From Acidobacteriota bacterium (GTDB lineage: Bacteria > Acidobacteriota > Terriglobia > Terriglobales > Acidobacteriaceae): 43,110 nucleotides of DNA. The number at the start of each line of letters is the position of its first letter. Within the stretch, counting starts at the first letter, position 1. Where the stretch lies: contig JAHFUA010000010.1 of assembly GCA_023265315.1 (NCBI GenBank), positions 1-43,110 of the forward strand, written 5' to 3'. The translations under genes and the position numbers were made by a program. Positions 725 through 39,175 of this stretch are shown one piece after another. The notes under the pieces were generated by a model. The model made no database searches. It was not told the DNA's origin and saw nothing but the letters and a program-made list of their open reading frames with translations.

Positions 725-1876
725 TCAGATCCTCATCGGCATCACGATATAGCGGTACTTGAACTCGTCGCCGTTCTCGGCGGGGCGGAGCTGGCCGGCG
801 GACTGCGGGTCTTTGAACTCGAAGCGGACGTCCCCGGCTGAGGAAGCCTTGAGGAAATCAAGCAAATATGCGGAATTGAAGCCTATGGTCAGCGGGTCGG
901 CGGCGTAGGCGGTCTCGATGGAATCTTCCGACTCGCCGGCCTCGCTCGAGGAAGACGACACTTTGATCTCGTTCTTGTCGAGGCGCAGGCGGATGGCGCC
1001 CGAGCGCTCGTCGGCGAACTGGGCCACGCGCTGGATGGCCCCGGCGATATCTTCCGAGCGCACGGTGACCGTTTTGGTGTTGTCGCGCGGCAGCACGGCT
1101 TCGAAGTTGGGGAACTGTCCGGTGAGCTGGCGCGAGGTCAGCAGGCGGTCGCCGACGCGGAAGAACAGCGTGGACTCGTCCTTGGCGAAGTCGATGGAGT
1201 CCTGGTCGAAATCCTGCAGCAGCGAGTTCAGCTCCGCCATGCACTTCTTCGGTACCAGCACGCGCATCTCGGTGCCGGGACCGGCGAATTTGCCGGCGCT
1301 GTTCTCGATGTGAGCCAGGCGATGGCCATCGGTGGCGACCATGGTCATGGATTCCGCCTTCAGCACCAGCAGCGCGCCGTTCAGCGTGTAGCGCGACTCT
1401 TCGTTCGAGATGGCGAAGATGGTCTTGGCGATCATCGTGCGCAGCACCTGGGCTGGGAGCTGGTAGCTGGTGCCGGTGGGGAACATGGGCAGCGCGGGGT
1501 AATTGGCGCGCGCCATACCCACCATCTTGGTATTAGAGCGGCCCAATCGAATGTTGACCCAGTGGTTCTCCAGCAGCTTAATGGTGATGTCGCCGTCGGG
1601 CAGCAGCTTCACGTAGTCGTGCAGCTTGCGTGCCGGGATGGTGCAGGAGCCTTCCTTCTTGACCTTCGCAGGACACGACGTGCGCAGGCTGAGGTCTAGA
1701 TCGGTGGCGGTGATGGTGAGCCGGTCGCCCACCGCCTCGAACAGAAAATTTGAGAGGATCGGGATGGTGGTCTTGCGCTCGACCACGCCCTGGGTAGCAG
1801 TGAGCTCTTTGAGTAGATCGGATTTGCTGACGGTGATTTCCATGGCAGCACCCGCCTGAGCCCCGGTCGATTCCAT
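725..1876 (-). CDS. dnaN: DNA polymerase III beta subunit (sliding clamp)
   Basis: 383 residues. The clamp encircles DNA and tethers polymerase III. The three clamp domains are recognisable: the N-terminal block MEITVSKSDLLKELTATQGVVERKTTIPILSNFL, the middle FAISNEESRYTLNGALL block, and the C-terminal end YRYIVMPMRI, where the conserved M-P-M-R-[IL] terminus forms part of the peptide-binding pocket. The first ATG has an AGAGG eight bases upstream. An internal ATG (MEITV, at 1843) matches the usual family start better, so the extra 11 N-terminal residues are doubtful. It lies downstream of dnaA on the same strand with a 296-base gap, the common dnaA-dnaN order. Confidence 0.97.
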   Translation of the reverse strand: MESTGAQAGAAMEITVSKSDLLKELTATQGVVERKTTIPILSNFLFEAVGDRLTITATDLDLSLRTSCPAKVKKEGSCTIPARKLHDYVKLLPDGDITIKLLENHWVNIRLGRSNTKMVGMARANYPALPMFPTGTSYQLPAQVLRTMIAKTIFAISNEESRYTLNGALLVLKAESMTMVATDGHRLAHIENSAGKFAGPGTEMRVLVPKKCMAELNSLLQDFDQDSIDFAKDESTLFFRVGDRLLTSRQLTGQFPNFEAVLPRDNTKTVTVRSEDIAGAIQRVAQFADERSGAIRLRLDKNEIKVSSSSSEAGESEDSIETAYAADPLTIGFNSAYLLDFLKASSAGDVRFEFKDPQSAGQLRPAENGDEFKYRYIVMPMRI

Positions 1877-2172
1877 ATGTGGCGCCTCTATTAACTTCTC
1901 TTATATCAAAAACCCAAACTTCTAAACAGTAGTAGCAGTAGGGGCTGGGGAAAAGTGGAAATTCGAGCCATTCTGCTGATCGTGCTCCGGATATGCGACC
2001 GGAGTTCGCGGGTATTCCGTCCCTTCGTCTGTGGCTGGTCAGGAAAACACGGCGAGGGAAGAAAACCGGACCTGAGCCCTACACAGCTTCCACAGCGCAT
2101 CCACAGGGCGGGCCGAGGGAAACACACCGTTTCGGTGGAAAACCCCGTGGCGCCGACGGAAAGCTCTCGGAT
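1877..2172. other. dnaA-dnaN gap with a cluster of weak DnaA boxes
   Basis: No gene is seen in these 296 bases. Three DnaA-box-like nonamers cluster near dnaA: GCTTCCACA (2086-2094), GCATCCACA (2097-2105) and, inverted, GGTGGAAAA (2134-2142). They match the relaxed consensus TTWTNCACA at 7, 7 and 8 of 9 positions. The dnaN-proximal end (about 1890-1925) is AT-rich. This could be an origin part or DnaA autoregulatory sites. No perfect box is present. Confidence 0.4.
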
Positions 2173-3573
2173 TCATCCGCCCAACTGCTCGGTCAGCTTG
2201 TTCAGCAGCCTATTCAAATCCTTGTCGGCCTTACGTACTTGCTCAATCTTGTCCACCGAGTGCATGACGGTGGTGTGGTGCTTGCCGCCGAACTGGCGGC
2301 CGATCTCCGGCAGCGAAGCCTCGGTCAGGTGCTTGGCCAGATACATGGCGATCTGCCGCGGATAGACGATCGAATGGGAATTGTTCTTGGCCTTGAGTTC
2401 GGTGACTTTCAGCCCGAACTGCTCGCCTACCGCCTTCTGAATGGCTTCGATGGTCACCTTGCGGCTCTGGGCATCGATGAAATTCTTGAGCACCTGCTGG
2501 GCGGTGACCAGGTTGAGTTGCGCGCCGGTCAGCCCGCAGTAGGCGATCAGGCGGATCATGGCGCCTTCGAGTTCACGCACGTTGGAGCGGATGTTCGACG
2601 CGATATAGAGGGCCACATCGGTGGGCAATTGGACGCGCTCAGACTCCGACTTCTTTTGCAGGATAGCGACCTTGGTTTCGAGGTCGGGCGGCTGGATATC
2701 GGCGATCAAGCCCCACTCGAAGCGGCTGCGCAACCGGTCCTCGATCTCGGCCAGCTCCTTGGGCGGACGGTCGCTGGCAATGACGATCTGCTTTTGCGAC
2801 TCGTGCAGCGCGTTGAAAGTGTGGAAGAACTCCTCCTGGGTGCGCTCTTTCTGGGCCAGGAACTGGATGTCGTCGATGAGCAGCACGTCCACGTTGCGGA
2901 AGCGGTCGCGGAAGCTGCTCATGCGGTCGTAGCGCAGCGAGTTGATCATCTCGTTGGTGAACTTCTCGCTGGAGATGTAGCAGATGGAGAGCTGCGCCTG
3001 GTGCTTTTTGACCTCGTGGCCGATGGCCTGCATCAGGTGGGTCTTGCCCATGCCGACGCCGCCATAAAGGAACAGTGGGTTGTAGCACTTGGAAGGATTC
3101 TCGGCGACGGCGCGGGCGGCGGCGTGCGCGAACTGGTTGCCGGCCCCGATCACAAATCCGTCGAAGGTGTACTTGGGATTGAGCTGGGCGGCGGAGTCGA
3201 AGTCGAAGCGCGACTGCGACCCGGGGCGCGCGCCGCCGGCCGCTGTGGAGCTTCCCCCCGGCGCCGGCTTGGCCGGAAAGGTGTGGCGCACGGAAGTGGC
3301 CGTGGGATCTTCCTCTTCGGTGACGAACTTTACATCTTGCAGGTCGAGCCCGAGATTGTCGATCGCCTCCAGGATGAGGTCGGAGTACTTCTCCTCGATC
3401 ACGCGGAATTCCGGCCGGGGCACACGGATGTACAGCACCTGGCCCTCCGTATGGCTGAAGCGTGTGGGCTTGAGCCAGGTGTCGAAGGAGGTGCGATTGA
3501 TCTTTTTCTCCAGGGCCCCGAGGATACGGATCCAGGGATTAGCTGCGGCGGTTGCGGATGATGCGAGCGACAT
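2173..3573 (-). CDS. dnaA: chromosomal replication initiator DnaA
   Basis: 466 residues from [14 protein letters not shown]. The frame runs further upstream, but only from this ATG does the protein match DnaA length. Domain I (about 10-85) contains [21 protein letters not shown]. Domain II is a Pro/Gly/Ala-rich linker (about 90-130). The AAA+ domain has Walker [10 protein letters not shown] (171-179) and Walker [11 protein letters not shown] (230-239). Domain IV near the C-terminus carries the DnaA-box signature [19 protein letters not shown]. DnaA-ATP binds 9-mer boxes and melts the origin. The ribosome site before the ATG is poor. Genes transcribed leftwards (dnaA, dnaN) and rightwards (rpmH onward) diverge from this side, as expected close to an origin. 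Confidence 0.98.
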
Positions 3574-4295
3574 TTTTCTGCGGCCACTAGCTGCCGGCTC
3601 CGAAGGGCAGAGACGGCGGAAAGAAATCGTAAACGAAAACACTATGAAAGGGCGCTGCCGGACAGGACGTGCTGTGCGCAATGCCCGGGCTGAAAAACCT
3701 GGGTTGTGCCGAAAAACTTCGGCAGGAATTGCGGAACCGGAAAACCGGACGAACCTGGCGACTGCTCGGCATACTAGCACGAAAAATTTTCGCGTGGAAA
3801 ATTTCCTGCGCTGAGTTGCGCCGAGTCCTTACGCAGACAACGACGGCGGCGGAAATCTGTCAAGTAGTTAGTTGGTTATGAAGCAAGAGTGTTGCAGTTT
3901 TTCCTTGCCACACCAATTGGGCAAGTCCGTCGCATCACTGTGTTCATGAGTTGCTCAGGCGTCTGGCTACAGGGGAATGGCTTGCGCCGGACAAGTTTGG
4001 TTCGAGTGAGACGTGGTTACAAAGTTTTTACATTTCTTGCTTGGTTGCCTGTGCAAGAGAATGGCTGAAACCCAAGCGGGGTGCTGGATTCCGGGCACGC
4101 ACCGCCCCAAAAAACTTGCAAAGAATCCCTTGACAATCTGATTCCAAAGTAGCAGGATTCCCGGCCTTGGCGGATGACCGGCCGCACGCTGAGCCGAGGG
4201 ACAGGCCAAAACATCCCCCGACTTCAAGGTAGCGTCCCCTCCCCATCTTCCCGTATCCGGCATTGCGCAGCCGAGGCTCTCTCAGGAGGAACAAC
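3574..4295. other. 722-base gap upstream of dnaA; possible origin/promoter region
   Basis: No convincing gene is seen. The gap lies at the strand switch between leftward dnaA-dnaN and the rightward genes, where an origin or the dnaA promoter would be expected. Only one good DnaA-box-like nonamer was found: inverted CGTGGAAAA at 3793-3801, 8 of 9 to the relaxed consensus, embedded in an AT-rich patch (about 3780-3805). Repeated GGAAAACCGG-like words occur near 3735-3750. Another AT-richer patch is near 4015-4045. The origin assignment is inference. Confidence 0.3.
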
Positions 4296-6071
4296 ATGAC
4301 CGCCCCAGCCACACGCATTCTCCTTAGGGCAGCTCTGCTGGTGTCCACTTTGGCGACAGCGCAGAACGCCCTGCCCGCACCCGCTATTCCGACGCAGTTC
4401 AACGAAGCTACGGTGGCCGAACTCCAGGCGCAGATGGCCTCCGGCAGGCTCACCTCGGAGGAACTGACCCGGTATTACATCACCCGCATCCTCTCGCTGG
4501 ACCGGGCCGGCGCGGGGGTCAACTCCATCATCGAGCTCAACCCGGACGCGATCACGATCGCTAAGCAACTGGACTCCCTGCGGAGGCGCGGCATCGTGCT
4601 CGGGCCCCTGCACGGGATCCCGGTGCTGCTCAAGGACAACATCGACACCGGCGACAAAATGCATACCAGCGCAGGATCGTTCGCGCTTGTCGGCACGCCC
4701 GCGCTGCGCGACTCCACCGTGGCGGCGAACCTGCGCGCCGGCGGCGCCGTGATCCTCGGCAAGACCAACCTGTCGGAGTGGGCGAACTTCCGCTCCTTCG
4801 AATCGATCAGCGGCTGGTCGGGCCGCGGCGGGCAGACGCACAACCCGTACGGCATCGATCGCAACCCCTGCGGCTCCAGCTCCGGCTCGGCCGCGGCCGC
4901 GTCGGCGAACTTCGCCGCGGTGTCGTTCGGCAGCGAGACCGATGGCAGCATCGTCTGCCCCGGCAACGCCAACGGTGTCGCCGCCATCAAGCCCACAGTC
5001 GGGCTCACCAGCCGCGCCGGCGTGGTGCCCATCTCGCACACGCAGGACACCGTCGGTCCCCACGGGCGGACGGTGGCCGATGCGGCAGCGGCGCTGAGCG
5101 TGATCCAGAGCCGCACCTCCGACGGACGCGATCCGGCGACGGGCGGCGTCCCGCTGGGCTGGCAGGGAACGGGCAAGACCCGTCCCACGAACATCCCCAC
5201 CGACTACACCCTGTTCGTGAACCCGAACGGCCTCCAGGGCGCGCGGCTTGGCGTGACACGCGTAGGGTTGGGCGGATTCGACCCGTTCGTCCCGACGCCG
5301 CCGGCGGTGCTGGACGCGTTCGAGACGGCAGTTGATGCGCTCGCGGCGGCAGGCGCCACCGTGATCGACCTGGATGCGGAAGGGTTTGCCTTCGCCTCGG
5401 CTGACGGCGAGTTCCTGGTGCTGCTCTTCGACTTCCGCAACGACGTGCGGGCGTACTTCGCCACGCGCCTCGGCGTGCCGGTGGCGGGCGGGACACTGCA
5501 GAGCGCCATCGACTTCAACAATGCCCATGCGGACGTCGAGATGCCGTTCTTCAACCAGGACATCTTCGACCTGGCCAACGCGCTGGCGCCCGGCCCCAAC
5601 GATCCCCAGCCGATCTTCGGGGGGATGACCTACAACCAGGCGCTGGCCATCGATCACAACGCGGGCGTGAACGGCATCGATGCCGCCATCAGCCAGTTCC
5701 ACCTCGACGCGGTGGTGTCGGCGACCGACAACCCGGCGTGGGCCACCGACCTGCTCTACGGCGACCACTTCATCTTCGGGACGTCCGGCCTGGCGGCGGG
5801 TCCGGGGTATCCGATCGTGCAGGTGCCCGCGGGCGGGGTGTTCGGTGTGCCGCTCGGGATCAGCTTCTTCGGAACGGCGTTCAGTGAGCCCACCCTGATC
5901 AAGCTGGCCTCCGGCTTCGAGGCGGCGACCCAGGTGCGGGCGCACAACCTGCCGACGTTCGCGGCGACGGTGCCCTTCAACAACATCCAGGGCACGACGG
6001 TCACGCGGCCGACCCGGCGGGCCGCTCCGAAGGCAACCGGCACCGGCCACAGGGTGCCGCACCACCTGTAG
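4296..6071 (+). CDS. secreted amidase (amidase signature family)
   Basis: 591 residues; ATG at 4296 has a perfect AGGAGGA six bases upstream. The N-terminus (RILLRAALLVSTLATAQNALPAPA) looks like a cleavable signal peptide, so the enzyme is probably exported. The Ser-cisSer-Lys triad of amidase-signature hydrolases is visible: Lys113 in PVLLKDNID, cis-Ser about 194 in NPCGSSSGSAAA, nucleophile Ser218 in SETDGSIVCPG. The family hydrolyses amide bonds; the substrate cannot be read from sequence. The nucleophile motif is slightly short of the usual TD-x-GGS spacing but is seen in exported members. It sits between dnaA and rpmH, an unusual place for a metabolic gene, suggesting insertion into a normally conserved block. 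Confidence 0.93.
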   Translation: MTAPATRILLRAALLVSTLATAQNALPAPAIPTQFNEATVAELQAQMASGRLTSEELTRYYITRILSLDRAGAGVNSIIELNPDAITIAKQLDSLRRRGIVLGPLHGIPVLLKDNIDTGDKMHTSAGSFALVGTPALRDSTVAANLRAGGAVILGKTNLSEWANFRSFESISGWSGRGGQTHNPYGIDRNPCGSSSGSAAAASANFAAVSFGSETDGSIVCPGNANGVAAIKPTVGLTSRAGVVPISHTQDTVGPHGRTVADAAAALSVIQSRTSDGRDPATGGVPLGWQGTGKTRPTNIPTDYTLFVNPNGLQGARLGVTRVGLGGFDPFVPTPPAVLDAFETAVDALAAAGATVIDLDAEGFAFASADGEFLVLLFDFRNDVRAYFATRLGVPVAGGTLQSAIDFNNAHADVEMPFFNQDIFDLANALAPGPNDPQPIFGGMTYNQALAIDHNAGVNGIDAAISQFHLDAVVSATDNPAWATDLLYGDHFIFGTSGLAAGPGYPIVQVPAGGVFGVPLGISFFGTAFSEPTLIKLASGFEAATQVRAHNLPTFAATVPFNNIQGTTVTRPTRRAAPKATGTGHRVPHHL

Positions 6072-6206
6072 TCAGCTGTCCTTGCGCACGATCTCCTTCA
6101 GGAGCCACCGCTGCTGCTTCTGGTGAATCTGAACGGGCGCGTGAAAACGTCGGCGGCGCCGATGGCTACCACATCGGTGACCAATGTGGATTGCTGGCAC
6201 TTGGAC

Positions 6207-6248
6207 GGGCTTGCACATCGAGGCTCCAGAAGCAGTTCGTGCAAGCCC
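6207..6248. repeat. inverted repeat in the gap after the amidase gene
   Basis: A perfect 10-bp inverted repeat (GGGCTTGCAC at 6207-6216 and its complement at 6239-6248) with a 22-base loop. It lies between convergent genes (amidase, plus; PQQ lipoprotein, minus). It may act in transcription termination, but there is no T-tract, so this is only a structural observation. Otherwise nothing is seen in 6072-6313. Confidence 0.4.
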
Positions 6249-6313
6249 CTCCAGGCGCAGAGTGTTCAGCGTTCGCCCTCGCACTGCGCTGCCGGTTGTT
6301 CGTGACGTGATGC

Positions 6314-7507
6314 TTAGGGCGCAGCGACCAGGCGCAGCACCGCGCCGTTGCCGTAGTCGAGCAGGTAGAGTTCGCCGGCGGCGTCCTGGCCGAAGGAGCT
6401 GACGGTGAGAGTGTGGGTGAGCACCAGCGTCTGGCTCCAATTGCCGCTTACGTCCCGCACGCCGGCCCAGACGTGCCCGCTGAAGAGGTCGCCAAAGACG
6501 TAGTCGCCCGCCAGGCCGGAGATAGCGGAGCCGTGATACACGAAACCGCCGATGATGGCCTCCCCTCCGGCAGTATTGTGGGCATACTCCATGATGGGCA
6601 GGATCAGCCCGGTCGTGCTGCACGAGCTGCCCGGCGGATAGCAGTGGGCGCCTTCCATCCTGTTCCAGCCGAAGTTGCCGCCCTTGGTGATAATGTCCAC
6701 TTCTTCGAAATTGTCCTGGCCGACGTCGCCGGCGAAGAGCTTGCCGGTGCCGCGGTCAAAAGAAAAGCGCCAGGGATTGCGCAAGCCGTAAGCCCAGATC
6801 TCAGGCAGGCCGCCGCCCGCAGCAAAAGGATTGTCCGGCGGGATCGCGTACTGCTTGCCGGGAGCGAAGGCGCCAGCTACGTCGATACGCAGGATCTTGC
6901 CTAGCAGCGTTTGCAGGTTCTGTCCGATCCCCTGGGGATCACCCTCGCTGCCGCCGTCGCCCAGAGCGATGTAGAGGAAACCGTCGGGTCCGAACGCGAG
7001 CTGGCCGCCGTTGTGGTTGCCGAAAGGCTGGTTGACCGCCAGCAGGATGCGTTCACTGGCCGCATCGGCCTGGTTAGCATTGGCAGCGGAGGCCAGGTAC
7101 TCGGAGAACACCGACTGCAGCTGTCCGCTCACGCGCCGCGTGTAATAGACGAAGAAGCGGCGGCTGGTGCCGAAGCTGGGGTGAAACGCCAGCCCGAGCA
7201 ATCCCTCTTCGCCGCCCGATTCCACCTTGGAGGTAATGTCGAGAAACGGCGTGGCAACCAAAGCGCCGCTCTGGGTAATGCGAATCCGTCCGGCCTGCTC
7301 CAGCACGAACAAGCGTCCCGTGCCGTCGCTCGGAGTTTCCATTCCGATCGGCGCCGTCAGCCCGCTGACGAATGCTGCGAGCGCCAGCGTCGGCGGGCCG
7401 CCGGGCGGCGGCTGAGACACGGCCGTCATGCCGCCGCAGCCGGCGAGGGCGGCCAGCAGCGCCGCGCACAAGAGCAGGCAGCAGATCGGGGCAGTCCGGG
7501 TATTCAT
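6314..7507 (-). CDS. PQQ-dependent sugar dehydrogenase-like lipoprotein
   Basis: 397 residues from ATG 7507. The start MNTRTAPICCLLLCAALLAALAGC ends in a lipobox (L-A-G-C), so the protein should be lipid-anchored outside the cytoplasm; longer starts would bury this signal. The body matches the soluble glucose/sorbosone dehydrogenase beta-propeller family: GEEGLLGLAFHPSF, LYIALGDGGSEGDPQG, EIWAYGLRNPWRFSFD and LFAGDVGQDNFEEVDII are its typical blades. Members use PQQ and calcium to oxidise sugars, but many are of unknown substrate. Its stop lies near the hairpin that separates it from the amidase. A second family member is encoded at 22360-23469. Confidence 0.9.
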   Translation of the reverse strand: MNTRTAPICCLLLCAALLAALAGCGGMTAVSQPPPGGPPTLALAAFVSGLTAPIGMETPSDGTGRLFVLEQAGRIRITQSGALVATPFLDITSKVESGGEEGLLGLAFHPSFGTSRRFFVYYTRRVSGQLQSVFSEYLASAANANQADAASERILLAVNQPFGNHNGGQLAFGPDGFLYIALGDGGSEGDPQGIGQNLQTLLGKILRIDVAGAFAPGKQYAIPPDNPFAAGGGLPEIWAYGLRNPWRFSFDRGTGKLFAGDVGQDNFEEVDIITKGGNFGWNRMEGAHCYPPGSSCSTTGLILPIMEYAHNTAGGEAIIGGFVYHGSAISGLAGDYVFGDLFSGHVWAGVRDVSGNWSQTLVLTHTLTVSSFGQDAAGELYLLDYGNGAVLRLVAAP

Positions 7508-7638
7508 CTGGGATTGGATGCGTCGACGGGCGAGATGATGTTGAGATTTGGGCCGAGTCCGTACAAGCAATGGGACAGAGACGCAAGTGCGAGGGAGGCT
7601 GCGACACGGTCCCGCTGCGCAGGGTGGCCGGCGCGCGT

Positions 7639-7667
7639 TTGCCGCCGATGAAGGTGTCATTTATACT
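7639..7667 (+). promoter_or_regulatory. sigma70-type promoter of the rpmH operon
   Basis: TTGCCG (7639-7644), a 17-base spacer, then TATACT (7662-7667). This matches TTGACA/TATAAT at 4 and 5 of 6 positions with ideal spacing. Transcription would start near 7674, about 40 bases before the rpmH ATG. Confidence 0.65.
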
Positions 7668-7714
7668 TTGATTTCGTTTATCGGAAAACTTTTTCAGCAG
7701 GAGCGCCCTCGTAC

Positions 7715-7870
7715 ATGCCGAAGCGCACATTCCAGCCCAACCGCCGCCGCCGCTCCAAGACGCACGGGTTTCGTGTCCGCATGCGGACCAAGGGAGGGCA
7801 GGCGGTGCTCAAGCGCCGCCGCGCCAAGGGACGAAAGCGCGTCTCGGTGAAGCCGGGCTTCCGCGAGTAG
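7715..7870 (+). CDS. rpmH: 50S ribosomal protein L34
   Basis: 51 residues, highly basic: begins [20 protein letters not shown] and ends VSVKPGFRE. This is the full L34 pattern (KRT[FY]QP-N-x-R-x-R-x-x-HGFR-x-R-M-x-T-x-x-G). L34 is part of the large ribosomal subunit. AGGAG lies about 12 bases before the ATG. It heads the conserved rpmH-rnpA-yidD-yidC-jag-mnmE string; rnpA starts 11 bases after the stop. Confidence 0.98.
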
Positions 7871-7881
7871 GGGCTCTCGCC

Positions 7882-8313
7882 ATGGCGCGCCCGGATGCAA
7901 CTCGCGTGCCGGTGGATGGCATTTCAGCCCGGTTGTGGCGGCCAGCGCGGCTTCGCAAGCACGCCGACTTCGAGAAGGTGTACCGCAACGGCCGGCGGCT
8001 TTTCTCCGCCCACATGACGGTGTTCTTCCTGCCGCGGGAGTCAGGCCCCGGTTCGGCGCGCGTGGGCTTTACGGTCCCACGGGCGATGGGCACGGCGGTG
8101 GAGCGCAACCGCATGCGGCGGCGGCTGCGCGAAGCGGTTCGCCTGAACCTGGGCGCGGCCGGCGGCGCGGTGGATGTGGTGATCCATCCCAAGAAGTCTG
8201 CGCTGTCGGCAGAGTTCGCGGTGCTGGGTGAGGAGATCGCGCGGGCGTTCCAAAAAATGCAGTCGTCGGTCGTCGGTCGTCGGTCGTCGGCGGAAAGCGG
8301 CGGGGGCGAGTGA
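7882..8313 (+). CDS. rnpA: ribonuclease P protein component
   Basis: 143 residues. RnpA binds the RNase P RNA and helps process tRNA 5' leaders; its RNA partner rnpB is encoded in this same window at 27332-27769. The fold is recognised by LRKHADFEKVYRNGRR (about 24-39) and the RNR signature AVERNRMRRRLREAVR (72-87). The C-terminal tail after about residue 126 (SSVVGRRSSAESGGGE) is not part of the family: it is encoded by four perfect copies of a 7-base repeat (8262-8289) and looks like an inserted low-complexity extension. The stop overlaps the GTG start of yidD. Confidence 0.96.
   Translation: MARPDATRVPVDGISARLWRPARLRKHADFEKVYRNGRRLFSAHMTVFFLPRESGPGSARVGFTVPRAMGTAVERNRMRRRLREAVRLNLGAAGGAVDVVIHPKKSALSAEFAVLGEEIARAFQKMQSSVVGRRSSAESGGGE
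8262..8289 (+). repeat. heptamer array inside the 3' end of rnpA
   Basis: Four perfect tandem copies of GTCGTCG in coding sequence. The same heptamer recurs in mnmE (12035) and between mnmE and ruvA (12387-12483). No inverted second arm is seen here. Confidence 0.9.
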
Positions 8314-8567
8314 ATTCAATGATGCAGGAGATCGTGCTGAAAGTGTTACGCGCCTACAAGTGGCTGGTATCGCCGCTGCTCGGCCCGGCGTGTCGTTACG
8401 TTCCCAGTTGCTCGGAGTACGCCATGGAGGCGGTGGCGCGCTACGGCGTCCTGCAGGGCGGACTCAAAGCGGCGTGGCGGCTGGCGCGTTGCCATCCCCT
8501 GGCTCGGGGCGGGTTTGATCCAGTTGCCAGTGTGAACACGCCCCCACTGAAAGAGTCCACACGTTGA
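8310..8567 (+). CDS. yidD: membrane protein insertion efficiency factor YidD
   Basis: 85 residues from a GTG that overlaps the rnpA stop by three bases; two internal ATGs at codons 4-5 are alternatives. The family hallmarks are present: YKWLVSPLLGPACRYVPSCSEYAMEAV (three conserved Cys among CRYVPSCSEY and later RCHP) and RLARCHPLARGGFDPV. YidD is a small membrane-associated protein thought to assist YidC-dependent insertion. Translation is probably coupled to rnpA on the left and yidC on the right, whose start overlaps its stop. Confidence 0.95.
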   Translation: MNSMMQEIVLKVLRAYKWLVSPLLGPACRYVPSCSEYAMEAVARYGVLQGGLKAAWRLARCHPLARGGFDPVASVNTPPLKESTR

Positions 8568-10363
8568 CCGACTTCCAGAATCCCCAGCACGAACCCGGCA
8601 GCGAGAAGCGGATGCTGCTGGCCTTCGTGCTGACCATGCTCATCCTGCTGGTGATGCAGCCGTTCATCAGCCGCTTCACCAAGCAACAGGCTCCTCCTGC
8701 CGCACCCACGCAGCCGGCGCCGCCACCTGCCTCCACGGCCGCGCCCGCCGAGGCGAAACCGGCCATGCCCGCTCCGGCCGCGCCGGCCGCGAAAGTAGCT
8801 GGCACAGAGAGCGAGACCGTGGTGGAGAACGATCTCTATAAGATCACCTTTACCAACCGCGGCGCGCAGGTGAAATCGTGGATCCTGAAGAAGTATCGCG
8901 ACGACAAGGGCAATCCGCTGGAGCTGGTCAACCCGCCGGCGGCTTCCAAATACGGCTACCCGCTTTCGCTGTGGAGCTACGACGAGGGCCTGCGCAAGAA
9001 ACTGAACGACGCGCTCTACGTGGCCAGTGCCACCGGCGCGCAGCATGCGCCGGCCTCACTCACCTTCGAGTATTCCGACGGCGGGACCATCGTCCGCAAA
9101 ACCTTCAGCTTCGACCACTCCTACGTAGTGAAAGCAGAGACTTCGGTTTACGTGAACGGCAGCCCGGTGCAGGCGTATCTGGCGTGGCCGGCGGGCTTCG
9201 GTGACCAGACGACGCCCGCGTCGTACGCGGCGGCACGCATCGATTACCAGGCGGGCGACACGATCGAGCGCATCGACGCCAAGAAAGTCAGCGGCCGCAA
9301 CACCATGCGCGGCCCCTTCCACTGGGCGGGTGCGGTGGACCAGTACTTCGCCGCCGTGTTCCTGCCCAGCCAGCCGGACGAAGCGGCCATGGTGACCTTG
9401 CATGAGTCGCTGGAGATCCCCAAGGACCTCGACAAGCCCGACCCGACCAAGGTCGATAAGGTTACGGTGCTGGGCGCGGCCGTGGGCAACGTAAATGGTC
9501 CGACTGAGGAGCGAATATTCGTCGGCCCCAAAGCGCTGGACGTGCTCAAGACGGTGCACGCTTCCCTGAGCAAGGAAGAGCTGGCGCGGCTGTCACCACC
9601 GGCGCGCGCCTCGGCGGAAGGTCCCAACCTCGAGGGCCTGGTGGATTTCGGCAAGTACCTGGGGTTTATCGCCAAGCCGCTGTTCCTGTGGCTGAAGTGG
9701 ACGCACGACCACTGGGTGGCGAACTTGTACAGCGGCTGGGGATGGGCGATCGTCATCCTGACCCTCATCATCAACATCGCCATGTTCCCGCTGAAGTGGT
9801 CGAGCATGAAGTCGTCGCTCAAGATGGCCAAGATCGCCCCCCAGATCAAAGCCATCCAGGAGAAGTACAAGAAGTACAAGCTGGCCGACCCGCGGCGGCA
9901 GGAGATGAACCAGGAGATCTCGGCGCTGTACAAGAAAGAGGGCGCGAACCCCATCGGCGGTTGCGTGCCCATGGCGCTGCAGATGCCCTTCCTGATCGCC
10001 TTCTACTCCATGCTGGGTGTGGGCATCGAGCTGCGGCAGGCGCCGTACCTGTGGATCAGCGATCTCTCATCGGCCGATCCCTATCACATCCTGCCCATCG
10101 CCATCATCATCACCATGTACCTGCTGCAGAAGATGACGCCAGCCGGCGGCATGGACCCGGTGCAGCAGAAGATGATGTCGGTCACCATGCCGATTTTTTT
10201 GGGGGTCATCAGTTGGTCGCTTTCCGCGGGGCTGTGCGTGTACTGGGTGCTGGGCAACGTGATCGGGATCGCGCAGCAGATGATCGTGAACCGGACGAAA
10301 TTCGGCCGCGAGATGCGCGAGCACATGGAAAAACAGGCGCGGAAAAAAGCGCAGAGACAGTAA
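8564..10363 (+). CDS. yidC: membrane protein insertase YidC
   Basis: 599 residues from a TTG overlapping the yidD stop. YidC inserts and folds inner-membrane proteins, alone or with SecYEG. The layout is that of diderm YidC: first membrane helix at about 17-35 (MLLAFVLTMLILLVMQ), a Pro/Ala-rich linker (about 43-70), a large periplasmic P1 domain (about 75-350), then the five-helix core with GWGWAIVILTLIINIAMFPLKW, the hairpin loop EKYKKYKLADPRRQEMN, and GGCVPMALQMPFLIAFYSML. The C-tail is basic (EKQARKKAQRQ). The size and P1 domain support an outer-membrane-bearing host. Confidence 0.97.
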   Translation: MTDFQNPQHEPGSEKRMLLAFVLTMLILLVMQPFISRFTKQQAPPAAPTQPAPPPASTAAPAEAKPAMPAPAAPAAKVAGTESETVVENDLYKITFTNRGAQVKSWILKKYRDDKGNPLELVNPPAASKYGYPLSLWSYDEGLRKKLNDALYVASATGAQHAPASLTFEYSDGGTIVRKTFSFDHSYVVKAETSVYVNGSPVQAYLAWPAGFGDQTTPASYAAARIDYQAGDTIERIDAKKVSGRNTMRGPFHWAGAVDQYFAAVFLPSQPDEAAMVTLHESLEIPKDLDKPDPTKVDKVTVLGAAVGNVNGPTEERIFVGPKALDVLKTVHASLSKEELARLSPPARASAEGPNLEGLVDFGKYLGFIAKPLFLWLKWTHDHWVANLYSGWGWAIVILTLIINIAMFPLKWSSMKSSLKMAKIAPQIKAIQEKYKKYKLADPRRQEMNQEISALYKKEGANPIGGCVPMALQMPFLIAFYSMLGVGIELRQAPYLWISDLSSADPYHILPIAIIITMYLLQKMTPAGGMDPVQQKMMSVTMPIFLGVISWSLSAGLCVYWVLGNVIGIAQQMIVNRTKFGREMREHMEKQARKKAQRQ

Positions 10364-10364
10364 T

Positions 10365-10434
10365 TTCGGGAGGGCACGGCTTCAGTCGTGCCGCTGAAGC
10401 AGGCTTGAGATGTGCGGGCTTTAAGCCCCTGAGG
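10365..10434. repeat. REP-like double-hairpin element (copy 1)
   Basis: A hairpin of type GCACGGC-TTCA-GTCGTGC (10374-10390) is followed after about 25 bases by a second palindrome GGGCTTTAAGCCC and the tail CTGAGG. The same order recurs at 26931-26993 and, inverted, at 39241-39355. It fills most of the yidC-jag gap. Confidence 0.75.
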
Positions 10435-10488
10435 ACCACCAAGACAGCGTTACAGCTTTCTGGCCTCACGCTTCGTATAATCTGACCG

Positions 10489-11001
10489 ATGCCCCTCGAG
10501 GACAAAGTCGCCGCCGCCAAACGCATTGATCAATTGCTGCGCGATCTGCTGAGCGCCGGCGGCTTCCTCCTGAAGTATCGCATCATGGTGGATCCCCCTG
10601 TCGAAGATCGCGACTGGGAACGCCCGCAGATCCTGGTGGCTTTCTCCGGACCGGACGGGCCGCTGCTGCTGGAGCGTGGCGCCGAACTGCTGCGCTCCCT
10701 CGAACACGTCACCCAGAAGATGCTGCGGCTGGAGTCGGACGACCACGACAAGGTGGTCTTCGACTGCATGAACCACCGGGCGATGCGCCTGGAGGAGCTG
10801 CGCCTGGCGGCCAGCGTGGCCGCGGAGAAGGTGCTCAAGACGGGCGTCCCCTACGAGTTCGCTCCCATGACCGCGCGCGAGCGCCGCAGCGTCCATCTGG
10901 CGCTGCGCGACCATCCCGAGCTGAAGACGGAGAGCTGCGGGGAAGGCCCGCAGCGCTGCGTGGTGGTCCTGCCGAAGAACGCCAAGCCGCAGAAAAAATA
11001 G
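10489..11001 (+). CDS. jag: Jag/KhpB-type KH-R3H RNA-binding protein
   Basis: 170 residues. It lacks the N-terminal Jag domain of longer homologues and consists of a KH-like part (about 15-95, including the WERPQILVAFSGPDGPLLLERG and LRSLEHVTQKML segments) and a C-terminal R3H domain (about 100-165) with the defining R-x3-H in TARERRSVHLALRDHP. Such proteins bind single-stranded RNA or DNA and sit with yidC in many phyla; their exact role is still poorly defined. It is 21 bases before mnmE. Confidence 0.9.
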   Translation: MPLEDKVAAAKRIDQLLRDLLSAGGFLLKYRIMVDPPVEDRDWERPQILVAFSGPDGPLLLERGAELLRSLEHVTQKMLRLESDDHDKVVFDCMNHRAMRLEELRLAASVAAEKVLKTGVPYEFAPMTARERRSVHLALRDHPELKTESCGEGPQRCVVVLPKNAKPQKK

Positions 11002-11022
11002 TCCCTCGGCTAAAATCAAGCC

Positions 11023-12387
11023 GTGGAGTTAGATGACACCATCGTGGCCATCTCCACCCCGCCGGGCCGGGGCGGGATCGGCGTGGTGCGGCTGGCCGGC
11101 TCTGAGGCGAAGGCCATCGCCGCGCCCCTGCTCCGGCTGAAGCGCGAGCTCGAGCCCGGCCGCGCCGTCTTCGGCGAGCTGATCGAGCCGGTCACCGAAG
11201 AGCGCATCGACGAGGTGGTGGTCACCTTCTTCCAGAAGCCGCACTCCTACACCACGGACGATATCGTCGAAATCTCGGGGCACGGCGCCCCGGTGGTGTT
11301 GCGACACGTGGTGGAGCTTGCCGTGGCGGCGGGCGCGCGCCTGGCCGAGCCCGGCGAGTTCACCATGCGCGCCTTCCTGAACGGCCGGCTCGACCTGACG
11401 CAGGCCGAGGCGGTGCGCGACCTGATCGAATCGCAAACGCTCTATCAGGCCAAGGTGGCGGCGCAGCAGCTCGAGGGCGTGCTCTCGCACCGGCTGCAAC
11501 CCATCAAGCAGAAGCTGGTGGAGCTGATCGCGGTGCTCGAGGCGGGAATCGACTTCGCCGAAGACGACGTGCCGGTGGCCGCGGTGGAAGACATTCAGCG
11601 GCGACTGGCCGAGGCCCGCGAGCCGCTGGCGGCGCTCGAGGCCTCGTTCGCTTACGGCAAAGTCGTCCACGAGGGCATGACGCTGGCCATCGTCGGTCGG
11701 CCGAACGTGGGCAAGTCGAGCCTCTTCAACCGGCTGGTGGAGCGCGAGCGCGCCATCGTCACCGCCACGCCGGGCACCACGCGCGACCTGGTGAGCGAAA
11801 CCGTTTCGCTGGGCGGAATCCCGGTGAAGCTGGTGGACACGGCGGGGATCCGCGCGGCCTACGACGAAGCCGAGAGCATCGGGGTGAAGAAAGCGTATGA
11901 GGCGCTGGCCGACGCCGATCTGGTCCTGGTGGTCATGGACCTAGCGCAGCCGGCGGCGGAGGAAGACGCGCGCCTGGTGGAGATGGTCGGTCCGCGGCCG
12001 AAGATCGTGGTGGAGAACAAGGCGGACTTGGATGGTCGTCGGTCGTCGGTCGTCGGCCATCGGCCAGACAACGGCCGCGTCCGGACTTCGGCGATCACCG
12101 GGGAAGGCATTGAGGAGTTGCGGCAAGAGATTCTTCGCCACGTCGCCGGCGAGGCTGCCGGGCAGCGGGAGAGCGGCTTCCTGACCAACGTGCGCCACCA
12201 GGGGCTGGTGCGGGAGGCCATCGCCGGGCTCGACGCCGGGCGGCGCGCGCTCGACCAGAACATCCCGCACGAGATGATGCTGCTCGACCTCTACACCGCT
12301 CTGCACGCGCTGGACGGCATCACCGGCGCAACCACCACCGACGACATCCTGAATCTGATCTTCAGCAGCTTCTGTATTGGGAAGTAG
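11023..12387 (+). CDS. mnmE: tRNA uridine-5-carboxymethylaminomethyl GTPase MnmE
   Basis: 454 residues from GTG. With MnmG it modifies wobble uridine 34 of certain tRNAs. The N-terminal folate-binding domain starts DDTIVAISTPPGRGGIGVVRLAG. The G domain has G1 GRPNVGKSS (225-233), G3 DTAG (272-275), G4 NKAD (332-335) and G5 SAITG (356-360). The C-terminus is the catalytic CIGK. Odd feature: the stretch between G4 and G5 (about 337-351, GRRSSVVGHRPDNGR) is encoded by a 7-base tandem repeat, the same heptamer as in rnpA, and looks inserted. The TAG stop forms the start of another heptamer array. Confidence 0.97.
   Translation: MELDDTIVAISTPPGRGGIGVVRLAGSEAKAIAAPLLRLKRELEPGRAVFGELIEPVTEERIDEVVVTFFQKPHSYTTDDIVEISGHGAPVVLRHVVELAVAAGARLAEPGEFTMRAFLNGRLDLTQAEAVRDLIESQTLYQAKVAAQQLEGVLSHRLQPIKQKLVELIAVLEAGIDFAEDDVPVAAVEDIQRRLAEAREPLAALEASFAYGKVVHEGMTLAIVGRPNVGKSSLFNRLVERERAIVTATPGTTRDLVSETVSLGGIPVKLVDTAGIRAAYDEAESIGVKKAYEALADADLVLVVMDLAQPAAEEDARLVEMVGPRPKIVVENKADLDGRRSSVVGHRPDNGRVRTSAITGEGIEELRQEILRHVAGEAAGQRESGFLTNVRHQGLVREAIAGLDAGRRALDQNIPHEMMLLDLYTALHALDGITGATTTDDILNLIFSSFCIGK
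12035..12069 (+). repeat. heptamer array inside the mnmE G domain
   Basis: Three perfect GTCGTCG units followed by GCCATCG and GCCAGAC. It is in frame, adding about a dozen residues between the NKAD and SAITG GTPase motifs. Confidence 0.85.
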
Positions 12388-26993: not shown

Positions 26994-27331
26994 TCATCTT
27001 CCGTGCACGCCGCCTTCGGGTTGCTCGCTTTCGTCCGCCGCAGCGGGCGGCCGTCCCCCCGTGAGTCTGGGCTAGGCCGGGGGATGGGTGGGCCGGTTGG
27101 GGTTCACGGTTTGCCTCGCGGCAGTCGGATGAAGCCCCGTCGAGCTGTGCGGTAAGTCCTCACCGTCCGCAGCGGCGAAAAAGGCCAGCCCCGCGCAGCC
27201 CGGAGCGGCGCGCGGTGTACGGACGGCGCAAGTCCACGCTGGAACCAATGTTAGGGGTGCTGAAACAACAACGCGGGACTAGCCCCGTGCCGAAATCCTG
27301 AGCCAAGCGAAGAACCCTGCAAGAACAAAGT
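26994..27331. other. GC-rich gap between recA and rnpB
   Basis: No gene, tRNA or named RNA motif was recognised. The stretch is rich in G/C runs. With rnpB reading toward recA, it is the downstream flank of both genes. It could contain a terminator or an unrecognised structured RNA. Confidence 0.3.
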
Positions 27332-27769
27332 GACAGCCGGACCTGTAAGCCGAATTCTGTCTGCTCGCCTTGCGGCGGGCAGGACGGTCATTCCTCTGGG
27401 CCGCGCATTGCTGCACGGCTCTAGCGACCTACCCGGAGGTGAAGCGCGCCGAGTCAGCACGCGGACGCCGAAGCGCCGCTCCCTCCCTATTTGGTCTTGC
27501 TCCGTGTGGGGTTTGCCCTGCCCGCCCCATTACTGGAACGGCGGTGCGCTCTTACCGCACCTTTTCACCCTTACCCGGCACAGCGGTTACCCGCGCGCCT
27601 GGGCGGTATGTTTTCTGTGGCACTTTCCGTCAACGCCCCTTTGAGAGGCGCCGCCCGGACGTTATCCGGCACACTGCTCTGCGGAGTTCGGACTTTCCTC
27701 CCCTGCTCCCGCGCAGCCTGGACGAATCCAGCGTTCGCGGGGCAGGAGCGACCGTCCGGTCCGGCTGTC
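27332..27769 (-). ncRNA. rnpB: RNase P RNA (bacterial class A)
   Basis: About 438 nt on the minus strand. The 5' end GACAGCCGGACC (27769 downward) pairs perfectly with the 3' end GGTCCGGCTGTC (27332-27343), forming helix P1. Conserved regions are present: GAGGAAAGTCCGAAC (27686-27700), the GGTAAGGGTGAAAAGGTGCGG-type core in the middle, and ACAGAATTCGGCTTACAG (27343-27360). The RNA is the catalytic part of RNase P, cutting tRNA leaders; its protein partner rnpA is about 20 kb away in this window. Confidence 0.95.
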
Positions 27770-35958: not shown

Positions 35959-37425
35959 ATGGCGGAGGAGACCGTCCTCATCGTTGACGATGAGAAGCTG
36001 GTGCGCTGGTCGCTGCGCCAGAAATACGAGGAGTGGGGCTTCACCGTTCTGGAAGCGGAGAACGGCACGGCCGGGCTGCGCCTGGCGCACAGCGGAAATC
36101 CCGGCCTCATCCTGCTCGACGTCCGCCTTCCCGACCTCAGCGGCCTGGAAGTGCTGGAGCGGCTGAAGGACAGTGGTGACGCCCGGGCGGTGATCATGAT
36201 CACCGCCGACCCGCAACTGGACGACGTCAAGACCGCCATCAAGCTCGGCGCCTTCGACTTCATCGGCAAGCCCATCGATTTCGACGAACTCCACGTGACC
36301 ACACAGAACGCACTGGAGGCCACGCGGCTGCGCAGCGAAGTAGAGTCGCTCCGCAGCGAGATGCAGCGGCGCGTCGGCTACCGCGACGTGGTCGCGGTGT
36401 CGAAGAAAATGTCCGAGCTGATGGGGTTCGTGCACAAGGTGGCGGCCAGCGAGGCTTCCACCATCCTGATCCAGGGCGAGAGCGGCACGGGAAAAGACCT
36501 GATCGCCAAAGCCATCCACTACCAGAGCTCGCGCCAGGACAAGGCCTTCGTCGCCATCAACTGCTCGGCCATCCCCGAGACCCTGATGGAAGCCGAGCTG
36601 TTCGGCCACGAGAAGGGCGCCTTCACCGACGCCAAGGCGATGAAGAAGGGCCTGTTTGAGATCGCCGACCGCGGCACCTTGTTCCTGGATGAGATCGGCG
36701 AGCTTTCGCCCTTTTTGCAGGCCAAGCTGTTGCGGGTGCTCGAAGACCAGGTGATCCGCCGCGTGGGCGGGGTGAAGGACATGCAGGCGGATGTGCGCGT
36801 GATTGCTGCCTCCAACCGCGACCTGGAGCGGGCCGTGCAGGAAGGCCGCTTCCGCCAGGACCTCTTCTACCGGCTGGCCATCATCAGCATTTACATCCCG
36901 CCCCTGCGCGAGCGCAAGGAAGACATTCTCCCGCTGGTGGAATTCTTCATCGAGCACTACAACACCAAGTTCCGCAAGTCCATTCGCGGCATCGCCGACG
37001 ATACTCGCCGGCTGCTGCTCAACCACGACTGGCCGGGGAACGTGCGCGAGCTCAAGAACGCCATCGAGCGCGCCATGATCCTCGAGGACGAGCCGGTCTT
37101 GCGTCCCGCCTACTTGCCTTTCTCCGTGGCCCAGCAGCACGCGCACCTCACCGCCTTCGAGCACATGTCGCCCAGGGCTAGTTCCAGCGGCGCGCTGCCC
37201 AATGGCCGCAGCCTGCCGCGCCTCTTCATCCCAGAGGGCGGCACTTCGCTCGAGGAGGTGGAGCGCGCGCTGGTGGAGATGGCCTTGCGCCAGGCCAACG
37301 GCAACCAAACCCATGCCGCCAAGCTGCTCGACATCAGCCGCGATGCGCTGCGCTACAAAATGAAGAAGTTCGGCCTGATGCATGCCGAAGAGGAAGAGCA
37401 ACCGGCATCCCAGCCGGAGCCGTAG
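35959..37425 (+). CDS. NtrC-family sigma54-dependent response regulator
   Basis: 488 residues. The receiver domain has VLIVDDE, phospho-acceptor Asp54 (ILLDVRLPD), Thr82 and Lys104. The AAA+ domain has Walker A GESGTGKD (173-180), the sigma54-contact loop GAFTDA (220-225), Walker B LFLDEIGEL (241-249) and an arginine finger region FRQDLFYRLAI. The C-terminal helix-turn-helix (about 420-470) shows NGNQTHAAKLLDISRDALRYKMKKFGL, like Fis. It activates sigma54 promoters when phosphorylated by the adjacent kinase. Confidence 0.97.
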   Translation: MAEETVLIVDDEKLVRWSLRQKYEEWGFTVLEAENGTAGLRLAHSGNPGLILLDVRLPDLSGLEVLERLKDSGDARAVIMITADPQLDDVKTAIKLGAFDFIGKPIDFDELHVTTQNALEATRLRSEVESLRSEMQRRVGYRDVVAVSKKMSELMGFVHKVAASEASTILIQGESGTGKDLIAKAIHYQSSRQDKAFVAINCSAIPETLMEAELFGHEKGAFTDAKAMKKGLFEIADRGTLFLDEIGELSPFLQAKLLRVLEDQVIRRVGGVKDMQADVRVIAASNRDLERAVQEGRFRQDLFYRLAIISIYIPPLRERKEDILPLVEFFIEHYNTKFRKSIRGIADDTRRLLLNHDWPGNVRELKNAIERAMILEDEPVLRPAYLPFSVAQQHAHLTAFEHMSPRASSSGALPNGRSLPRLFIPEGGTSLEEVERALVEMALRQANGNQTHAAKLLDISRDALRYKMKKFGLMHAEEEEQPASQPEP

Positions 37426-37637: not shown

Positions 37638-37673
37638 AAAGTGTGGACATCACAGAAAGTGTAGACATCACAG
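37638..37673 (+). repeat. tandem 18-bp repeat before a small gene
   Basis: Two copies differing at one base: AAAGTGTGGACATCACAG then AAAGTGTAGACATCACAG, followed by AAAGG, which may be the ribosome site for the gene at 37688. A CCCGGCA/TGCCGGG hairpin is near 37459-37480. Nothing else was recognised in 37426-37637. Confidence 0.8.
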
Positions 37674-37687
37674 AAAGGTAACTGGAT

Positions 37688-37945
37688 ATGTTCAAATATG
37701 CCGACCTGCGAGGTAAGCCGATAGTCATTAAGTGTTCTGGTTTAGCCTTGCCCGTGGTCGCTGAAGTTGTTGAAGTCGAAGAAGAAGGTCTATGGCTCAA
37801 GGCAGACATCTTGGGCCTTCGCCAGAAGAAGAATGATGATTCTTGGCCAGAAGCATGGCCGGAAGACCTCAAGATGTTTCTTTCGGCTCGAATTGAGTCT
37901 CTGGTGTTTGTTCCACGGGAACAGATTAGTTACATCGTGAGCTAG
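37688..37945 (+). CDS. small hypothetical protein, 85 residues
   Basis: MFKYADLRGKPIVIKCSGLA begins a short protein with alternating hydrophobic residues (VVAEVVEVEEEGLWLKADILGL and IESLVFVPREQISYIVS), the look of a small beta-barrel. An Sm-like or similar fold is possible, but no motif proves it. It has no signal peptide. The codon usage is less GC-rich than its neighbours (many TTT, TCT, GAA), which hints at a different origin. AAAGG lies about 10-12 bases before the ATG, inside a tandem repeat flank. Confidence 0.6.
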   Translation: MFKYADLRGKPIVIKCSGLALPVVAEVVEVEEEGLWLKADILGLRQKKNDDSWPEAWPEDLKMFLSARIESLVFVPREQISYIVS

Positions 37946-38120
37946 CGCTCAAGCAAAAAGCAAATCCAAGGTGCTGCCCATTGCCTGCATGTTTCTCTGG
38001 GCATCGCTTTTGCATGGAACAGGCTCCCGCAGACCGCCAGCCCCACAGAGCGCACGACGATTCATCGGTGGTTGATGATGGCCAGGAGCACACGGCAGAA
38101 GTGAGAGTATCTGCAGGGTA

Positions 38121-38282
38121 ATGACATTGCTGTTACCGGGCAAGGAACAACACACGCGAAAAGCGGCGGCGGTTCGGTCTGAGGTGAAAGGGCCGATTCG
38201 GTGCCATAAGTGCCAGTTGAAGTGCCGCGCCGCCGCCGAGTATTCAGCCGACACATGCGAGCCTAAACCACAAGACCTCTAG
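38121..38282 (+). CDS. small Cys-rich protein, likely zinc-binding, 53 residues
   Basis: A 54-codon frame from ATG 38121 to TAG 38282. It begins MTLLLPGKEQHTRKAAAVRS and ends with a cysteine cluster IRCHKCQLKCRAAAEYSADTCE: C-x2-C-x3-C-x10-C plus an adjacent His, the look of a small zinc ribbon or knuckle. AGGG lies just before the ATG, a little close. The reading frame is clean and the peptide is far less repetitive than a random shadow. A second small gene starts 14 bases after the stop. Function unknown; nucleic-acid binding is a guess. Confidence 0.55.
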   Translation: MTLLLPGKEQHTRKAAAVRSEVKGPIRCHKCQLKCRAAAEYSADTCEPKPQDL

Positions 38283-38296
38283 GAAACGGAGCCGCC

Positions 38297-38458
38297 TTGT
38301 CAGAGCGCAACGGTGATAAGTCGAGATTCGGACGAGAGCGCAAGCAGAAGGCCCTGCGGCGGAAACGCAACCGAGAGTTGCGGACAACACTTGGGCTCGT
38401 CAAACCGCCAGCAGCGAGTCACCCGAAATTGGGCGGCGCAGCGCGGCCGAGCGCGTAA
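38297..38458 (+). CDS. small Arg/Lys-rich protein, 53 residues
   Basis: TTG start with CGGAG five bases upstream. The peptide begins SERNGDKSRFGRERKQKALR (after the start) and continues with further K/R-rich residues, then LRTTLGLVKPPAA. This is a strongly basic helix followed by a short tail. It looks like a nucleic-acid- or ribosome-associated protein. I believe similar short basic proteins exist in Acidobacteriota, but could not check. It is probably in an operon with the Cys-rich gene upstream. Confidence 0.6.
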   Translation: MSERNGDKSRFGRERKQKALRRKRNRELRTTLGLVKPPAASHPKLGGAARPSA

Positions 38459-38560: not shown

Positions 38561-39175
38561 CTAGCTCTTGCCGGCCTTGGTCTCGGCAATCAGGCTTTGC
38601 ACTTTCTGGACCTGGTCCGGCGGCAGGTTGGGATTGTTCTTTAGCAGCTTTTCCCACGCGGCCAGGGCGCCGGCGTTGTCTTTGTAGGCGTCACGCCGCA
38701 CGATTCCCAGGTTGAACAGAGTGTTGGGATAGTTCGGGGAGACCTTCAGCACCTGGTTGAACTGCTCGATGGCCTTGTCGGGAAAGCCGGAGTAGAAGTA
38801 AGCCGTGCCCATGTCGGTGCGCACGTTGGGGTCGTCGGGACGGAGATCCAGCGCCTGCTGGTAGTAGCGGATGGCTTCCGACCAGAACTTGTGGTCGTAG
38901 TAGACGTTGCCCAGTTTGATCAATGTAGGCACATCCTTCGGATTCGCCTTGACCGCGTCCAGCAGAGGTTGCGCCTCCTGGTTGAGCGATGCCACCGACT
39001 GCATGGATTCGCTCGACGAAGGGCTGGGGGCGGCGGCCGCAGCCGGTGCGTTGGCCACCGGCGAAGACGATCCCCGGAAGAGCCAGCCCGCTATCAATCC
39101 GGCGAACAGGCACACCATCGCCAGCAGGTAAGCCTCACGGCTGCTCCAGGTCTTGGCGGAGGTCGGCGGTTGCAT
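38561..39175 (-). CDS. membrane-anchored TPR protein
   Basis: 204 residues from ATG 39175; an AAGGAG lies about 14 bases upstream, and a start at 39211 is also possible. One membrane helix (AYLLAMVCLFAGLIAGWLF, about 15-33) is followed by an Ala/Pro/Ser linker and about three tetratricopeptide repeats (about 70-200): KLGNVYYDHKFWSEAIRYYQQALDLRPDDP, DMGTAYFYSGFPDKAIEQFNQVLKVSPNYP, then NLGIVRRDAYKDNAGALAAWEKLLKNNP. TPRs mediate protein contacts. Similar proteins serve in cytochrome c assembly or secretion, but the role here is not shown. Confidence 0.88.
   Translation of the reverse strand: MQPPTSAKTWSSREAYLLAMVCLFAGLIAGWLFRGSSSPVANAPAAAAAPSPSSSESMQSVASLNQEAQPLLDAVKANPKDVPTLIKLGNVYYDHKFWSEAIRYYQQALDLRPDDPNVRTDMGTAYFYSGFPDKAIEQFNQVLKVSPNYPNTLFNLGIVRRDAYKDNAGALAAWEKLLKNNPNLPPDQVQKVQSLIAETKAGKS

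Follow-up and report, generated by a model that had tools for sequence, protein, structure and literature searches.

NGDK, a conserved family of small basic proteins in Acidobacteriota with a putative link to RNA

Introduction

Synechocystis requires single-RRM proteins, of the cyanobacterial Rbp1/Rbp2 kind, in order to adapt to cold (PMC9333190). Here we describe a family of small proteins whose genes often have a single-RRM protein of this type (PF00076) as a neighbor, although the family itself contains no RRM and the link is genomic only. Bacterial cold-shock proteins (PF00313) offer a second point of comparison, as a cspA-like gene is divergent from or next to the family's genes at 10 loci; unlike cold-shock proteins, the family lacks the CSD fold and is predicted to form a helix instead. 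Its members are short and rich in Arg and Lys, as are bS21 and bTHX, but they have no profile match to these proteins, and bS21 is present separately. A second, Cys-rich family shares with classical C2H2/C2HC fingers the C-x2-C-x12-H-x-C pattern and the spacing of hydrophobic positions, and differs from them in an extra invariant Cys and, in the copy described here, in having Asp for His.

Both families are encoded in a window of 43,110 nucleotides from an Acidobacteriota genome (GCA_023265315.1, contig JAHFUA010000010.1), by which we mean the whole stretch of DNA that was analyzed. Elsewhere, the window carries dnaN-like and dnaA-like genes (minus strand) followed by rnpA-, yidC-, jag- and mnmE-like genes (725-12387), which we take to be an order of the replication-origin type, and a bacterial class A RNase P RNA (27330-27767, minus strand, 275.7 bits).

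Results

The locus lies between a gene for a sigma-54-type response regulator, which ends at 37425, and a convergent gene for a TPR protein with its stop at 38561. A sequence-only reading had proposed a tiny operon of two 53-residue proteins here, and all of the coordinates, lengths and signals it named are found in the sequence. A Cys-rich frame (38121..38282, plus strand) runs from ATG to TAG, with some uncertainty about its start codon, and contains C-x2-C-x3-C-x10-C. It is followed, after a 14-base spacer (38283..38296, plus strand) that holds a GGAG ribosome site, by a basic frame (38297..38458, plus strand) with a TTG start and a TAA stop. Upstream, a 35-codon frame (38014..38121, plus strand) overlaps the Cys-rich frame in a TAATG at 38119-38123, and an 85-residue frame (37688..37945, plus strand) has a ribosome-site-like AAAGG. 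This intergenic stretch contains seven plus-strand frames of at least 53 residues, compared to 3.2 +/- 1.4 in Markov-shuffled sequence. Because shuffled sequence already yields about three, such frames are unremarkable by length, and length alone is weak evidence that they are genes. It is conservation that tells the real frames from the chance ones.

The basic frame is a genuine gene, and its protein is conserved. With 10 Arg and 6 Lys residues (net charge +12), the protein belongs to a family of highly basic, 40-75 residue proteins of Acidobacteriota, for which we have coined the name NGDK. The family motif is MSxxNGDK[SA]RFxRxRKxKixRRxRxREL; M1, S2, N5, G6, D7, R15 and R22 are invariant in the alignment, while K8, R10, R13 and R26 are nearly so. 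The window protein has the N-terminal MSxxNGDK[SA]R and the Arg-rich helix after it by which we recognize members. Single-sequence searches found matches in 51 of 150 relatives' genomes including its own, and a profile search found the family in 18/297 genomes of a phylum sample. Its distribution is patchy, with many genera represented and usually one copy per genome. All database contigs matched in a scan of 84,980 species, which reaches close relatives only, are acidobacterial. The sequence-only reading had named conservation and a Ka/Ks comparison as the checks on these frames, and the basic frame passes both, with relatives in 50 other genomes of the 150 and a pN of 0.05 against a pS of 0.56-0.60 in comparisons to the closest relatives (0.56 for genome G058). 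Across the family, pS exceeds pN in 99 percent of 1,431 pairs, variation is concentrated at the third codon position, and a Shine-Dalgarno-like motif precedes 51/54 members. The family is under strong purifying selection.

No model in Pfam, NCBIfam or PHROGs matches the NGDK protein, and no chain matches the NGDK profile in a PDB profile search. The suggestion that small genes of this kind are easily missed thus holds for at least one real gene here, which has no model in the family libraries. The gene is chromosomal, and searches of plasmids, phages and viral contigs returned no relatives at the sensitivity used; a phage or plasmid origin was rejected at that sensitivity. AlphaFold2 models NGDK as one helix, residues 5-31 (pLDDT about 87), plus a disordered tail, and the pTM is only 0.42.

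In relatives, NGDK genes recur beside genes for RNA-binding proteins. An RRM gene lies within 2.5 kb of 12/20 NGDK positions (19 genomes), against 0.05 expected; as each genome has only 0-4 RRM genes, this proximity is far from chance, with the qualification that related loci share ancestry and are not independent. About 29 of some 48 NGDK loci contain a gene for a single-RRM protein, nearly always downstream and on the same strand, and many loci have a gene for a receiver-like protein in between. By tblastn, a cold-shock (cspA-like) gene occurs at 10 loci, either divergent and about 450-600 bases upstream or adjacent. Pfam confirmed the RRM (PF00076) and CSD (PF00313) domains of these neighbors, and the RRM association involves two RRM subfamilies and extends across several families of the class. 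After the RRM gene, about 19 NGDK loci encode a second small basic family, BAS (MPRGRSTFTKRQKEQxRQQKQRDKAERR). BAS has no Pfam model and is found at L014:2187-2297, L009:2703-2807 and about 17 other loci. In another subgroup (L047, L051, L022 and L064), an uncharacterized protein (RLVKDLGGYGLDQRIREAGWTFFSMAVTVEATGLG...) is encoded immediately upstream of the NGDK gene.

This usual neighborhood is missing at the window locus, as no RRM or cold-shock gene lies within the 43 kb. An RRM neighbor is common rather than universal in the family, and the window copy is among those without one. Elsewhere, the same genome has three RRM genes and five cold-shock genes. G058 has one NGDK gene in a canonical locus (L101) and another in a copy of the window type; the window gene is therefore a second type whose original context has been lost here.

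Upstream of NGDK genes of the RFHRERK-type subgroup, we observed a conserved leader, TTAACC[AT]CGAAGACAC-N-TTGCGCCTTCGCGATTGAGA-N-AGGCG, which comes after a -10-like TATAAT or TATACT and lies 140-265 bases before the start codon. At L014:1294-1370 and 27 similar loci (L122-L149), it reads TTAACCxCGAAGACAC...GCGCCTTCGCGATTGAGA...AGGCG, right after the -10-like box. A model of the leader (R1), built from 17 copies, matches in about 30 genomes. Of the 28 strong matches that we opened, 26 have an NGDK gene downstream, including 9 of about 11 outside the model-building set; of the remaining two, one comes after a cold-shock gene. An Rfam search of the leader and the window region gave no match above threshold, and the window genome contains no strong R1 copy. 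Changes in a predicted hairpin, GCGCCUU/AGGCGC, are one-sided only, and since no compensatory pair was seen, it stays a candidate structure. We consider the leader a candidate 5' regulatory RNA.

The Cys-rich frame represents a second unnamed family, and it too has no model in Pfam, NCBIfam or PHROGs. Among 250 relatives, intact members occur in seven other genomes (two copies in G010), along with one relic, and pN is 0.15-0.26 against a pS of 0.53-0.96. The family core is VKGPIRCHKCQxxCxDAxxYLSHxC, of which the window copy retains the VKGPIRCHxC part. The family has the spacing of classical C2H2/C2HC fingers, C-x2-C-x12-H-x-C or in full C-x2-C-x3-(C)-x5-(Y)-x2-H-x-C. In line with this, an AF2 model of one member consists of a beta hairpin plus a helix, and Foldseek returned weak matches, mostly C2H2 fingers, all with E-values above 1. 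A PDB profile match to viral E6 covers only 8 residues and was taken as chance. The window frame had been likened to a zinc knuckle. This label does not fit, as its C-x2-C-x3-C-x10-C differs from the CCHC spacing C-x2-C-x4-H-x4-C, no Pfam model matches, and the family is one of C2HC fingers in which the window copy is without the His. Eight other members keep Y-x-x-H-x-C, whereas the window copy has YSADTC in place of YLSHKC, with Asp for the His ligand, and so lacks the full C, C, H, C set. It differs from L035 at five of the last twelve finger positions. The window copy is probably decaying. In G058 (L041), a relic ahead of the NGDK gene has lost its CxxC half, and only DAAEYLGLKCEPKPQRQ, also without the His, is left; L042 and L043 retain no more than the final codons of the Cys gene, fused to an unrelated upstream gene. 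Cys-family genes also occur in neighborhoods like those of NGDK, divergent from a cold-shock gene (G444 and G468) or from an RRM gene (G470).

The two upstream frames had been put forward as further parts of the unit, a proposal that finds no support, with relatives of neither found. The 35-codon frame has no significant match in 150 relatives, is missing from all of the relatives' loci examined, and is probably not a gene; a match to STEEP1 in the Pfam, NCBIfam and PHROGs searches fell below the cut-off and was taken as chance. The 85-residue frame is an orphan, with no match in 200 relatives, no Pfam, NCBIfam or PHROG model, and no evidence of membership in the unit. Just before it, at 37642-37678, is a tandem of TGTGGACATCACAGAAAG / TGTAGACATCACAGAAAG, which resembles an operator or the end of an element. 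We rejected a mobile-element reading of the TGTGGACATCACAGAAAG tandem, which is single-copy in the genome.

Discussion

The adjacency of the Cys-rich and NGDK genes invites the idea of a functional two-gene operon, for instance a zinc-finger protein paired with a basic RNA-binding protein. The genes share a strand and are separated by only 14 bases, the G058 relic shows that the arrangement is older than the window lineage, and in G470 both genes flank one RRM gene. We nevertheless find this very doubtful. The window Cys copy has no His ligand, a Cys gene is missing from most NGDK loci, and three relatives have kept NGDK intact while the adjacent Cys gene has been disrupted or lost. The sequence-only reading had gone as far as a two-protein complex; with the Cys gene a fragment or gone in these three nearest relatives (L041, L042 and L043), the pair does not qualify as a conserved complex, and in G037 the two genes are at separate places. 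The adjacency appears to be ancestral to this small clade and now in the course of being lost, while NGDK stays intact. Two small adjacent genes, one of them basic, might also bring to mind a toxin-antitoxin module. Here the odds look very slim: the pair lacks the joint conservation and mobile distribution of such modules, members usually occur without the partner, the location is chromosomal and syntenic, and plasmids, phages and viral contigs yielded no relatives at the sensitivity used.

For NGDK itself, the best reading, drawn from its charge and from its neighborhood in relatives, is a link to RNA. The earlier suggestion of a ribosome- or RNA-associated function therefore survives in part: the RRM and cold-shock neighbors in relatives support the RNA link for the basic protein, a link to the ribosome itself is only conjectural, and bS21 is encoded separately. 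Like bS21 and bTHX, NGDK is small, Arg-rich, Shine-Dalgarno-led and usually single-copy, and by this analogy it could be a lineage-specific ribosomal or ribosome-associated factor. We judge that distinctly unlikely, since the family is patchily distributed, no PDB chain matches its profile, and bS21 has its own gene in 7/7 genomes tested. A displaced bS21 was rejected outright, with no match to PF01165 (Pfam) and the genome's own bS21 at C121. An unlikely but somewhat more credible alternative is a nucleoid-associated or DNA-binding small basic protein, in which case the RRM and cold-shock neighborhood would reflect only shared stress regulation. The net charge of +12 and single predicted helix would suit such a role, and cold-shock domain proteins can bind single-stranded DNA too; what points to RNA instead is the recurrence of RRM proteins as neighbors, drawn from two subfamilies and found across several families of the class. 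Gene neighborhood does not prove RNA binding, and basic proteins can bind DNA too.

Our preferred explanation, to which we assign a probability of roughly 0.55, is that NGDK is an Arg-rich peptide that binds RNA and acts with RRM and cold-shock chaperones, and that the Cys gene is separate and degenerating. The peptide, disordered or a single helix on its own, would bind mRNA or rRNA by charge and fold on it, and it would work together with RNA chaperones of the RRM and cold-shock types, most likely when cells adapt to cold or stress. The Cys-rich frame would then belong to a separate small C2HC family that occasionally shares the same neighborhoods and is dispensable for NGDK function. More speculatively, NGDK could be a new class of RNA-chaperone cofactor within a set comprising a divergent cspA gene, the leader RNA, NGDK, the receiver-like protein, the RRM protein and a small basic protein, and the leader could be an undescribed cold-responsive RNA element.

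The main novelty lies outside the coordinates of the proposed operon, in the NGDK family, its RNA-binding neighborhood and the leader. Among the papers available to us, we found none on RRM or small proteins of Acidobacteriota. Two small-protein families are added here to those in the libraries searched, one of which, NGDK, is strongly selected in a phylum that is abundant in soil. NGDK is linked to genes for RRM and cold-shock proteins, and what these do in such bacteria seems to have received little study. The conserved leader of its relatives offers a directly testable entry point to cold regulation beyond Proteobacteria and Cyanobacteria.
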